From an uncultured Spirochaetales bacterium (GTDB lineage: Bacteria; Spirochaetota; Spirochaetia; Sphaerochaetales; Sphaerochaetaceae): DNA of 46,553 nucleotides. The notes below the pieces were generated by a model. The model was given only the letters and a program-made list of their open reading frames with translations, was not told the DNA's origin and ran no database searches. This document shows positions 23,062-38,646 of the stretch, piece by piece; the stretch's first letter is position 1; every line of letters begins with the position of its first letter. Location of the stretch: contig CADBSO010000027.1 in NCBI GenBank assembly GCA_902797395.1, positions 1 through 46,553 on the forward strand, given 5' to 3'. The position numbers were made by a program, and so were the translations under genes.

Positions 23062-24762
23062 GTGAAAGTTTTGGTTGTAGACGATGAAGTCAATTTGAGG
23101 AACACCGTAGTAAAGTTTCTTGAGATAGAGGGTCATGTTGCCATTGGCGCATGCGATGGTCTGGACGGATTGGAGAAGGTCAAGAACGATAATTTCGATA
23201 TCATAATGACTGATCTCAAGATGCCGAGAATGACTGGCCTGCAGTTTCTTGAGAAGCTTAAGGAAATGGGCGTTAGGACTCCTACCATAATGATGAGCGC
23301 ATTCGGAGAGACCAAGGATGCCGTCAATGCGATGAAGCTCGGCGCGAAGGATTACATCGTAAAGCCTCTTGCGCTGGATGAGGTTCTTTTGAGAATCAAG
23401 AACGTCCATGCTATGTTTTGCCTCGAGAACTCCATTAATGCGATCAAGAAGGTACAGGATGATGGCTTCGTCGGCGAGAGCGTTGCGATAAAGAACATCA
23501 AGGCTACTGTCAGCAAGATTTCCAATGTTTCATCAAATGTTCTCATAACCGGTGAGAGCGGAACCGGAAAGGAAGTGCTGGCAAGGTATATCCATAACAA
23601 CAGCCCTATGGCGAATGGTCCTTTTATGGCGATAAACATAGCCGGCGTTCCTGATAACCTGATAGAAAGCGAGTTGTTCGGCTACGAGAAGGGCGCTTTC
23701 ACTGGCGCTACCTCAAGGAAGCTGGGCCTTTTCGAGATGGCTCAGGGCGGTACGGTGTTTCTTGATGAGATAGGCGATGCTACTCCCTCGCTTCAGGTCA
23801 AGCTTTTGAGGGTGCTTCAGGAAAAGAAGATAATGCGCCTTGCGGGAACTGCGGAAATACCTATAAACGTTCGCTTCATATCGGCTACGAACAGGAACAT
23901 CGAGAATGATGTCAAGGAAAAGAGATTCAGAGAGGATTTGTATTTCAGGCTGAATGTGATAAAGATAAATCTTCCTCCGCTCAATCAGCGGACGGGTGAT
24001 ATTCCGCTTTTGGCGAAATACATGATACAGAAGCTCAACAAGAAGATGAGCAAGTCCGTGAAGGATCTTCATCCGATGGCTTTGAAAAAGCTTGAGGAAC
24101 ATAGGTTTTCAGGAAATGTCAGGGAATTGGAGAATCTCATAGAGCGCGCGATGATCTTTTGTACGGATGAGGAATATATACTTCCGGAGATGATTTCGTT
24201 CTCTGCAATAGCAGGCCCTGGCGCAGGTGCGGCCGGCGGAATGTATGGCAATATGCCGCAGGGCGGATATCCTCCGCAGGGAGGATATGGGATGCCGCAG
24301 GGCGGATATCCGCCGCAGGGCGGATATGGGATGCCACAGGGCGGATACCCACCGCAGGGATACGGCGCTGCTCAGGGCTGGCAGAATGGAATGCCCGCAG
24401 GCGCGCCGGGAGGATACAATGCCGGGTATGGCGCCAATTACGGCGGTTATCCGAATCAGGGCTATCCTGGAATGCAAGGTGGCTATAATCCGTCGCATCC
24501 GGGGCAGCCTGCTGGAATGAATATGAATGGGATGCCAGGAGGCGTTGGAATGGCCGGCGGCATGCCGGCTGGCGCCGGAGTGCCGGGAGGCTCGCGTCCG
24601 CAATCGAATGCGGATAGCGGCTCGCTTCTTCTTAAGGATGCTGAAATCGAGAATATCAAGAAAGCGTTGCTTAAGCATGAGGGCAATAGGTCTAAAGCGG
24701 CGGAAGAGCTTGGAATCTCCAGAAGGACGCTTTTGAATAAGATAGAAGAATACGGTCTATGA
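23062..24762 (+). CDS. NtrC-family sigma54-dependent response regulator with PG/Q/Y-rich linker
   Basis: The receiver domain (~1-120) has VVDDE, the phospho-acceptor Asp in [13 protein letters not shown], and KPLALDE. The AAA+ domain (~143-375) has [15 protein letters not shown], the sigma54-contact loop GAFTGA, and [11 protein letters not shown]. The last ~45 residues form a Fis-type helix-turn-helix ([21 protein letters not shown]). Between them, residues ~385-515 are a low-complexity linker of Gly, Pro, Gln, Tyr, Met and Asn. In ordinary NtrC proteins this linker is short. The start is GTG at 23062. No partner histidine kinase is in the window, and its target genes are unknown. The stop overlaps the next gene as ATGA. 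Confidence 0.93.
24253..24366 (+). repeat. 39-bp tandem repeat inside the NtrC-type linker
   Basis: Three in-frame units begin at ATG 24253, 24292 and 24331. The first two are complete and the third is partial. Each encodes [13 protein letters not shown]. The units differ by synonymous changes such as CCTCCG/CCGCCG/CCACCG, so they are not very recent copies. The number of units could vary by replication slippage without breaking the frame. Confidence 0.85.
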
Positions 24763-35297: not shown

Positions 35298-35318
35298 TAG
35301 GGTTATCATGGATGACAT

Positions 35319-35392
35319 GTTCCCGTAGCTCAGCTGGATAGAGCATTTCCCTCCTAAGGAAAGGGTCAGGCGTTCGAATCGCCTCGGGGACA
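35319..35392 (+). tRNA. tRNA-Arg (CCT anticodon)
   Basis: The 74-nt cloverleaf has acceptor strands GTTCCCG and CGGGGAC with one G-U pair, D-arm AGCTCAGCTGGATAGAGC, anticodon loop CTCCTAA with anticodon CCT, and T-arm GGCGTTCGAATCGCC. The discriminator is A at 35392. The bases after it are TTT, so CCA is not encoded and must be added by a nucleotidyltransferase. It reads AGG, a codon used very often in this window. Confidence 0.95.
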
Positions 35393-35414
35393 TTTTTCTT
35401 TTTGGGCGCCTGTT

Positions 35415-35511: not shown

Positions 35512-36810
35512 ATGAGCAAGGTTGTGGTTATCCGCGGAGCAGGTGATCTGGCGAGCGCTGTTGCATTGAGATTGAAAAGGTCCGGATTCGATGTCCTTAT
35601 GTGTGAGATCGAGAAGCCGACTAGCATCAGAAGAACAGTTTGCTATTCCGAATGCATATATCAAGGTGAAATGGAAATAGAGGGCGTGAAAGCCGTTCGG
35701 GTTGATGGAATACCGCAGGCTAGCGATGCTTTCAGATCCGGAATGATAGCTGTCATGGCCGATCCTGCGGCTTCATGTCTGGCTGGCATTGATTGTCTGG
35801 CATTGGTGGATGCGATCCTTGCGAAGAGGAATACTGGAACGAAAAGGAGCATGGCTCCGCTGACTATCGCGCTCGGTCCGGGATTTGTAGCGGGAAAGGA
35901 TGTTCATGCTGTGATCGAGACCAAGCGCGGCCATTATTTGGGAATGGTGTATTATAGCGGATCGGCGTTGAAGAATACAGGCATACCCGGTGATATTATG
36001 GGCTTTTCAGCTGAAAGGGTGATGCATACTCCAGCTGCCGGAGTGTTTCGGAGCGATTTGAGCATAGGTGATTTTGTTCATAAGGGCGATGTCATAGCCA
36101 CAATCGGAGGACAGCCTGTTCTCGCCAAGATAACCGGTGTTCTCAGGGGGTTGCTCAGAAGCGGTCTGGAGGTTCCTGAGGGTTTCAAATGCGCTGATAT
36201 CGACCCGCGGAAGGACGCGGCCGGATATATAAATACCGTTTCGGATAAGGCGAGAGCCATATCGGGAAGCGTTCTGGAATGCATTTTGGAATATGTTTCC
36301 CTAAAGCGAGCGAAAGCTGCTGCCGCATCATCCGGGAACGCGGCTGTCGGGAGAATCGCATCGGACCAGGATTGCGTTGACATTTATGTTGATGGCTCAT
36401 GCAATGCTGATGCGTCCGCAATAGGATATGGGGTTGTCATAATAAGGGATAATCGTGTATACGAGTTTTCGGGAGAGGTCACGGATCCCTCTTATCGTGA
36501 ATTCAGGAACATAGCAGGAGAGATAGAGGCCAGCATGTTTGCTATGAGGTATTGCTTGGACAATGGCATAGGTGGCGTCAGGCTCCATTTCGATTATTCC
36601 GGACTTCGCGATTGGTGTACGGGCGCGTGGAAATGCAGGAATGTTCTCACACAAGGGTATAAGGAATTTTATGATGGCATAAAGGACCGGTTGAGCGTGA
36701 TTTGGGTGAAAGTCGAGGCTCATACGGGCAACAGGTATAACGAATTGGCTGACAAGCTTGCCAAAAAGTGCTTTTCGGATCATGTCGGAGATAGCAAACA
36801 AGAGCAGTGA
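35512..36810 (+). CDS. YqeB/EF2563-type molybdenum-hydroxylase accessory domain fused to RNase HI
   Basis: Residues ~1-265 match the EF2563/YqeB family, linked to selenium-dependent molybdenum hydroxylases. The match includes VVIRGAGDLASAVALRL (Rossmann-like), CEIEKPTSIRRTVCYSE, GPGFVAGKDVHAVIETKRGH and a biotinyl/SAF-like barrel with GDFVHKGDVIATIGG. After an Ala-rich linker, residues ~286-425 are RNase HI. Asp in DIYVDGSC, Glu in AGEIEA, Asp in HFDYSG and Asp in NELADKLAKK give all four catalytic acids. RNase HI cuts the RNA of RNA-DNA hybrids. The 432-residue frame is uninterrupted. GAGGTG upstream supports ATG 35512. No other molybdenum-hydroxylase gene is in the window. Confidence 0.88.
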   Translation: MSKVVVIRGAGDLASAVALRLKRSGFDVLMCEIEKPTSIRRTVCYSECIYQGEMEIEGVKAVRVDGIPQASDAFRSGMIAVMADPAASCLAGIDCLALVDAILAKRNTGTKRSMAPLTIALGPGFVAGKDVHAVIETKRGHYLGMVYYSGSALKNTGIPGDIMGFSAERVMHTPAAGVFRSDLSIGDFVHKGDVIATIGGQPVLAKITGVLRGLLRSGLEVPEGFKCADIDPRKDAAGYINTVSDKARAISGSVLECILEYVSLKRAKAAAASSGNAAVGRIASDQDCVDIYVDGSCNADASAIGYGVVIIRDNRVYEFSGEVTDPSYREFRNIAGEIEASMFAMRYCLDNGIGGVRLHFDYSGLRDWCTGAWKCRNVLTQGYKEFYDGIKDRLSVIWVKVEAHTGNRYNELADKLAKKCFSDHVGDSKQEQ

Positions 36811-37240
36811 GAAATCGGATGATGAGATTCTTTTCGAACTGGAGCATGCCCATAGCAGGCAGGAGGCCAGGGAGATAAGGAGGAAATATGCTGCCAGCAG
36901 GATTACTGGCAGGCAATCCATCAGGCTGCTGTCATCGCTCGAGCGTTTGGGGATGTATTTTCAGATTCTTGTTTTCGCTGTTTATATGTTCGCCGGATAT
37001 GTTTCGTATTCCGAGAGGATAGTTTATGGCCTGTATGACTTGAGCATTGTTTCGGGCGTGTTCATCCTTTTGTTTTCGCTTGTGGGGATAGCGTATGCGA
37101 TTTTCAAATCCGTAAAATCGAAGGCAAGCCCTGTCGGGTTCATATTGTTGTCATTGGTTCGGATTGCGGTTATGCTTGCGCTTGTGAGCATAGAGACCGC
37201 TTTGAAGCTTTTATCAAATGGAGGTTTGTTCAGTGTTTGA
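36782..37240 (+). CDS. Small membrane protein of unknown function
   Basis: I do not recognise this 152-residue protein. About 60 charged, helical residues (EKSDDEILFELEHAHSRQEAREIRRKYAAS) come first, followed by three probable membrane spans near 68-88, 93-115 and 125-147. ATG 36782 lies inside the end of the RNase H fusion, and the gene's stop lies eight bases inside ffh. It is therefore coupled between RNase H and the SRP GTPase. A role in membrane insertion is possible from position only. Confidence 0.6.
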   Translation: MSEIANKSSEKSDDEILFELEHAHSRQEAREIRRKYAASRITGRQSIRLLSSLERLGMYFQILVFAVYMFAGYVSYSERIVYGLYDLSIVSGVFILLFSLVGIAYAIFKSVKSKASPVGFILLSLVRIAVMLALVSIETALKLLSNGGLFSV

Positions 37241-38585
37241 GTCATTAGGCAGAAAAATATCGGGAATCTTCAAGTCGCTTTCGGGCAAAGGCAGAATTTC
37301 CGAAAGGAATATCGAGGAGGCGGTAGAGGAAATCAAGATAGCGCTTCTTGATGCGGATGTGAATTTGCGTGTCGTGAGGAGATTCATCAATTCCACGATA
37401 GAGGAGGCGAAGGGCAAAAAGGTCATAGAAAGCGTGAATCCCCAGCAGATGTTCACGAAAATCGTTCGCGATAAGATAGAGGAGCTTCTCAAGAGCGGAG
37501 GCGAGACCTCTTTGTCGTTGCGAGATCCGTCTCAGACATCGGTTGTTCTTCTTATGGGATTGCAGGGAAACGGAAAGACCACTACGGCTTCCAAGCTTGC
37601 ATTCAAGTTGAAATCCGAAGGGAGGAGGCCATTGCTTCTTGCTTGCGATTTGCAGCGCCCGGCGGCTATAGATCAGCTTGAGACGCTATCGAAGCAGATA
37701 GACGTGCCGATTTTCCTTGATAGGAATGAGAAGGATCCTGTGGCGCTTTCCAAACGTGGTTTGGATTATGCGAAAAAGAATCTCTATGATGTGCTGATAA
37801 TAGACACGGCAGGCCGCTTGAGCATTGATGAGGCGCTCATGAACCAGATAAGGGAGATAAAGGATGCGGTATCCCCATGTGAGAGCCTGTTTGTCGTTGA
37901 TTCCATGCTTGGCCAGATAGCTTGCGATGTCTCCAAGGCATTTAATGATAACGTGCCTATTACGGGTATAGTTCTGACTAAATTCGATAGCGACAGCAGA
38001 GGCGGAGTTGCAATGAGTCTCGCTGGCGTCGTTGGAAAGCCGATCAAATTCATAGGAACCGGTGAGAAGCCTCAGGATCTTGATGAATTTCATCCTGATA
38101 GGGTTGCTAACAGGATACTCGGAATGGGTGATGTTGTCAGTCTTGTTGAGAAAGCAGAGAAGGAGATATCCGAGAAAGAGGCGGATAGGCTTGCTAGGAA
38201 TCTTAAAAGCGGGACATATACAATATCTGATTACCTTCAGCAGCTTGATATGCAGGATAAGATGGGTGGCGCCGGAAAGATACTTTCCATGTTGGGAATG
38301 GGTGCTGTTCTTGATTCCAAAAAACTTGAGCAGGTTAAAAGCGAATTGAAAAGGGAGCGCGCCATAATAGGATCCATGACTGCTGCCGAAAAGGAGAACT
38401 ACAAGATAATAGGGCCGCCGAGAAGAAAGCGCATAGCGAACGGATCGGGGACCACTCAAGCTGATGTTGAGCGCTTCATACGCAAGTTTGAGAAAACCAA
38501 GATGATGATGCAGAAAGTCACGAAAAGCAAGAGGATGCAGGCCGAGCTTGAGAAGCAGTTCGGAAATGCTGATCTTCCGGAATGA
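37233..38585 (+). CDS. ffh: Signal recognition particle protein Ffh
   Basis: Ffh with the SRP RNA (17463-17563) delivers nascent membrane proteins to FtsY at the membrane. The 450-residue protein has the N domain, then the G domain with GLQGNGKTTTASKLA, DLQRPAAIDQL, DTAGRLSIDE and LTKFDSDSRGG. The Met-rich M domain follows (MLGMG, KMMMQKVTKSKRM). The start is GTG 37233 with GGAGG eight bases upstream. The motif GQIACDVSKAF replaces the usual GQDAVNxAKxF, a modest divergence. Confidence 0.96.
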   Translation: MFESLGRKISGIFKSLSGKGRISERNIEEAVEEIKIALLDADVNLRVVRRFINSTIEEAKGKKVIESVNPQQMFTKIVRDKIEELLKSGGETSLSLRDPSQTSVVLLMGLQGNGKTTTASKLAFKLKSEGRRPLLLACDLQRPAAIDQLETLSKQIDVPIFLDRNEKDPVALSKRGLDYAKKNLYDVLIIDTAGRLSIDEALMNQIREIKDAVSPCESLFVVDSMLGQIACDVSKAFNDNVPITGIVLTKFDSDSRGGVAMSLAGVVGKPIKFIGTGEKPQDLDEFHPDRVANRILGMGDVVSLVEKAEKEISEKEADRLARNLKSGTYTISDYLQQLDMQDKMGGAGKILSMLGMGAVLDSKKLEQVKSELKRERAIIGSMTAAEKENYKIIGPPRRKRIANGSGTTQADVERFIRKFEKTKMMMQKVTKSKRMQAELEKQFGNADLPE

Positions 38586-38608: not shown

Positions 38609-38646
38609 AAAAAAAAAAGACCGCCGTTTGTTCGGCGGTTTTTTTT
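38609..38646. terminator. Bidirectional intrinsic terminator between ffh and greA
   Basis: ACCGCCG and CGGCGGT form a seven-base-pair stem around TTTGTT. An A-run (38609-38618) and a T-run (38639-38646) flank it, so it can stop transcription from both convergent genes. Confidence 0.92.

Follow-up and report, generated by a model that had tools for sequence, protein, structure and literature searches.

YqeB helps to load selenium into molybdenum enzymes. In C. difficile, yqeB is required for the activity of selenium-dependent hydroxylases (PMC11448449). A fusion of this protein has been described in Haloarcula (PMC2276186) and is common in genomes of the family Sphaerochaetaceae, where YqeB often forms the C-terminal part of an XdhC-YqeB protein whose N-terminal partner belongs to the same pathway. 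RNase HI has also been found joined to an enzyme of a cofactor pathway: the actinobacterial RNase HI-CobC proteins (Rv2228c, MSMEG_4305 and SCO2299) link an N-terminal RNase HI, across a variable linker, to a phosphatase of the B12 pathway, and they are widespread in their order (PMC7466739). The two halves of these proteins function separately in vivo, and drift has been proposed as an explanation (PMC7466739). Lastly, some prokaryotic RNases HI carry an N-terminal hybrid-binding (viroplasmin/dsRHbd) domain.

In this work, we analyzed a stretch of 46,553 nucleotides from an uncultured Spirochaetales bacterium (hereafter, the window) in which a single frame encodes YqeB followed by an RNase HI. 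The resemblance to RNase HI-CobC lies in the combination of a cofactor-pathway enzyme with an RNase HI that, as in M. tuberculosis, is the only one found in its genome (PMC7466739); the order of the domains and the identity of the partner are different, and the YqeB-RNase HI protein was found in one species of those searched. Unlike XdhC-YqeB, the partner of YqeB is here C-terminal and comes from outside the pathway, XdhC being encoded by a separate gene. Compared with the hybrid-binding RNases HI, which belong to the same RNase H clade, the N-terminal extra domain is YqeB instead of a hybrid-binding domain. As far as the sequence can tell, the fusion is real, and we consider it rather probable that it is a genuine gene fusion, present in one species among those searched, of two enzymes that work independently of each other. 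It constitutes a new domain architecture and, beside RNase HI-CobC, a test case for whether fusions of two enzymes are adaptive or have drifted to fixation; its direct medical or biotechnological weight is low.

The fused frame and its surroundings

Positions 35512-36810 of the forward strand make up one open frame of 432 codons, which starts at ATG 35512 with GAGGTG immediately 5' of it and is free of stops on translation. The features of the region are as follows:

35318..35393, + strand: tRNA-Arg(CCT), upstream of the fusion
35512..36306, + strand: YqeB (TIGR03309) domain, residues 1-265, a Rossmann-like N-terminal part and then a biotinyl/lipoyl-like barrel
36307..36363, + strand: Ala-rich linker of about 19-25 residues (about 263-288)
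36364..36807, + strand: RNase HI domain, residues 285-432, with catalytic D294, E337, D361 and D414 plus H404, without basic protrusion
36808..36810, + strand: stop codon of the fusion, lying within the next gene, which is read in a different frame
36782..37240, + strand: gene for a small membrane protein, sharing 29 bases with the 3' end of the fusion
37218..38585, + strand: ffh (SRP54), overlapping the small membrane-protein gene, with no further gene ahead of a terminator-like hairpin at 38623-38639

A first-pass annotation of this DNA had described an uninterrupted frame with an Ala-rich linker and no frameshift, and the translation agrees with it on each point. GC3 and codon usage are similar in the YqeB half, in the RNase H half and in the rest of the contig, with no break in composition at the join; the linker itself has a GC content of 65%, against 48% for the window. 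A search of codons 201-320 for in-frame ATG, GTG or TTG gave TTG214 and TTG259 only; these belong to the YqeB domain, and the linker holds none. A usual start codon could therefore yield the RNase H half only within the fusion protein, and separate translation of this half from an internal start was rejected on the same grounds. In the other genomes of the genus, yqeB and ffh lie in other surroundings as judged by synteny comparison, so that there is no empty site with which the locus could be compared. The small membrane-protein gene is an orphan, with no relatives in the 138 other genomes of the family. The fusion gave no match in PADLOC, and a reading of it as an anti-phage defence protein was accordingly rejected.

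The YqeB half and the selenium-dependent hydroxylases

Residues 5-260 match the YqeB equivalog model TIGR03309 at 353.6 bits (5.8e-106; model positions 1-255 of 256), well above its cut-off of 220 bits, which settles the identity proposed in the first-pass annotation. In an alignment of 32 sequences that includes the half under study, 57 columns are invariant, and the fused YqeB departs from the conserved columns at 11 of 96 positions as against 14 of 95 for a YqeB of the same genus (L079, genome G137). Its identity to other members of the family reaches 59%. The two halves were modelled one at a time, because MAFFT aligned RNase H rows to the tail of YqeB when the whole fusion was used; the AlphaFold2 model of the YqeB half has a mean pLDDT of 90.9, and its C-terminal barrel resembles the biotin carrier (BCCP) domain (Foldseek TMt 0.81 to 9yx4_J), a similarity also noted for YqeB of C. 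difficile (PMC11448449). At residues 48 and 95 the fused protein has Cys, where Ala and Pro, respectively, stand in all 31 other sequences compared.

That no hydroxylase or molybdopterin gene lies nearby had been pointed out before, and none was indeed recognised in the open reading frame lists of the window. From this it had been suggested that YqeB might have a different job here. The rest of the genome argues otherwise: three molybdenum hydroxylases are encoded on other contigs, among them selenium-associated enzymes above the equivalog cut-offs (TIGR03311, 1190 bits, contig C117; TIGR03313, 1251 bits, contig C36), together with SelD (342 bits) and the YedE selenium transporter (448 bits), both above cut-off and near each other on contig C1, and with XdhC on contig C45. 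Hydroxylases of this type are present in all 139 genomes of the family. The fusion protein used as query finds a match in 129 of them, nearly always on its YqeB half, and in this family the gene for YqeB is often located apart, on a separate contig or in a different neighbourhood. The fused YqeB is also the only one found in the genome, with no second copy. Because its usual partners are encoded in the genome, the YqeB half most likely keeps its ordinary function of maturing selenium-dependent molybdenum hydroxylases encoded elsewhere, and a changed function was rejected. Thus, of the interpretation offered in the first-pass annotation, the fusion and both domain identities stand, whereas the altered job of YqeB does not.

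The RNase H half and the RNase H repertoire of the genus

Residues 289-419 match RNase_H (PF00075) at 37 bits (4.6e-09; cut-off, 25.8 bits), and the four catalytic acids noted at the outset (D294, E337, D361 and D414) were found together with H404 to be invariant in an alignment of 31 RNases H. The half departs from its own clade at none of 23 conserved columns. Its AlphaFold2 model (mean pLDDT 92.6) has the RNase H fold; the top PDB matches are RNases HI with a probability of 1.00, and the nearest solved chain is 2kq2, an RNase H-related protein (1.7e-18). Judged by sequence and models, both halves look functional. An alignment with canonical rnhA products showed that the basic protrusion of the E. 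coli RNase HI is missing. Archaeal RNases HI also lack this protrusion, which is not a strictly defining feature. No match to the hybrid-binding domain (Cauli_VI/viroplasmin) was obtained in the fusion protein. The RNase H half would act as an RNase HI and clear RNA from RNA-DNA hybrids, although this activity is uncertain because an RNase HI of B. subtilis devoid of both the protrusion and the hybrid-binding domain was inactive (PMC1950709).

No RNase HI other than the fused domain was found in this genome, a draft in 148 contigs with 87.5% completeness from which a separate rnhA or RNase HIII gene could be missing; an RNase HII is also present. RNase HI occurs in 126 of the 139 genomes of the family, mostly in the canonical form and at 130-169 bits, but the family's own canonical rnhA was not found in the three genomes of this genus. 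Its two other species (G137 and G138) have no RNase HI, and encode RNase HII and a second protein (L160 and L161) for which RNase HIII is the best-scoring protein family, at 155 and 147 bits, just below the cut-off of 161 bits. Another genome of the family, G063 (95% complete), has RNase HII but no match to either RNase HI or RNase HIII.

In a tree of 60 RNase H domains, the fused domain falls in a group of 26 members (support 100/100) apart from the canonical spirochaetal group (100/100). Its sisters are stand-alone enzymes of Lachnospiraceae and rumen Eubacterium, with a weak support of 92/79. An origin of this half from a phage or plasmid was rejected: only distant matches were obtained, with less than 40% identity among the matches listed, and none in viral contigs. 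In the same clade, the RNase H of G029 carries a viroplasmin/HBD as extra domain. L107-L121, also of this clade, have an extra domain either N-terminal (L107, L110, L114 and others) or C-terminal (L108, L113 and L115), which gave no Pfam match over the cut-off and is possibly an undescribed hybrid-binding module.

According to published work, RNase HI and RNase HIII tend to be inherited one without the other, and types of RNase HI take each other's place (PMC1950709). The simplest reading of the present data is that a lost native rnhA was replaced by an RNase HI of another type. The native gene would have been lost in the genus; in one lineage the gap may have been filled by the RNase HIII-like gene, and in the lineage of the fusion a protrusion-less RNase HI of another type would have been acquired and have landed behind yqeB, with a flexible Ala-rich linker coming to connect the two in one frame. 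This order of loss and gain is inferred from the three genomes of the genus. The join could have been tolerated since an RNase HI with an N-terminal partner still works; selenium chemistry and RNA-DNA hybrids would not have to be functionally linked. Members of this small genus cover RNase HI differently, which fits the published idea of RNase H genes replacing one another.

An unlikely alternative is that the YqeB half helps the RNase H to bind its substrate, or regulates it, in place of the missing hybrid-binding domain or protrusion. The extra domains carried at either end by relatives of the same clade (viroplasmin/HBD in G029, others in L107-L121) agree with it, as does the increase of RNase activity in vitro by the fused CobC domain of Rv2228c, as cited in PMC7466739. 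Nonetheless, the YqeB half retains the conserved YqeB residues and coexists with the hydroxylase system, it holds no nucleic-acid-binding domain at cut-off, and the nearest relatives in the tree, from rumen Lachnospiraceae and Eubacterium, have the same RNase H without any partner, even if this sister relationship is supported only at 92/79.

We likewise give a small probability to the possibility that the RNase H half has little or no catalytic activity and is a passive tail of a protein in which YqeB alone matters. The inactivity of the B. subtilis enzyme mentioned above and the existence of a family member in which our searches detected neither RNase HI nor RNase HIII (G063) would be in favor of it. 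However, the catalytic residues of the RNase H half are all in place, as are the other columns conserved in its clade, and this half is the only RNase HI or HIII found in the genome.

Rarity of the fusion and other RNase HI fusions

YqeB joined to RNase H was found in none of the other genomes among the 139 of the family, in none of 393 sampled genomes of the phylum, and in no case by a pattern scan of 84,980 species that reaches close relatives only. The fusion is thus seen in a single genome, and is best read as lineage-specific and probably near-neutral. That assembly or binning wrongly put yqeB and an RNase H gene together would be conceivable for a single sighting in a draft metagenome assembly, but we regard it as very improbable: the frame is kept exactly at the domain boundary, codon usage and GC3 run on across the join, both sides look spirochaetal (up to 59% identity for YqeB and 51-58% for ffh), and no second copy of either half was found in the genome.

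RNase HI is nevertheless found as a C-terminal fusion in other members of Spirochaetota, where its partners are a Gfo/Idh/MocA oxidoreductase (nine genomes), a CYTH protein (five), DAHP synthase (one) and IspF (one); Pfam confirmed 7 of these 16 proteins, the others being assigned by sequence similarity. In these proteins, too, an unrelated metabolic enzyme ends in an RNase HI, but their RNases HI are canonical and protrusion-bearing while that of the YqeB fusion belongs to the other clade. The YqeB-RNase HI protein is probably one of several such spirochaete cases. The first-pass annotation had held that the two activities might be combined in a way not described; no evidence of a functional combination was found, RNase HI follows several other unrelated enzymes in the phylum, and a fusion of a cofactor enzyme with RNase HI is already known from actinobacteria (PMC7466739). 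A true coupling of the two activities, for instance with RNase H action or the R-loop state tied to selenium/molybdenum cofactor supply, has the physical fusion alone in its favor and is scarcely credible for a fusion confined to one species of those searched, in a phylum whose RNase HI partners are mutually unrelated.

It is tempting to speculate, at long odds, that C-terminal attachment of RNase HI to unrelated metabolic enzymes exceeds expectation in Spirochaetota because the RNase HI gains stability, dosage or substrate affinity from its carrier, and that YqeB would be the case of a selenium-cofactor protein turned into the arm with which a protrusion-less RNase HI, the only RNase HI of the cell, binds its substrate. 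Because RNase HI is fused to several unrelated enzymes within one phylum, the question can be tested by comparison.

Regarding the individual fusions, the Gfo/Idh/MocA-type oxidoreductases with a canonical RNase HI (506-573 aa; L126, L129, L130, L131, L134, L144, L145, L147 and L148) come from several genera of one Spirochaetota family (f3), and the CYTH-domain proteins with a canonical RNase HI (323-332 aa; L125, L136, L137, L138 and L139) from two families. Both halves were confirmed by Pfam in IspF-RNase HI (L142:1641-2651, - strand) and in DAHP synthase-RNase HI (L146:1300-2874, - strand). On inspection, the long RNase H frames L140, L141, L143 and L149 were not enzyme fusions. In one further genome (L150:389-1198, - strand), a short cupin-like N-terminal domain with no Pfam match is joined to RNase HI. 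Elsewhere in the window, positions 23062-24762 of the + strand encode a response-regulator-like protein with Gly/Pro/Gln-rich tandem repeats ahead of its C-terminal part.
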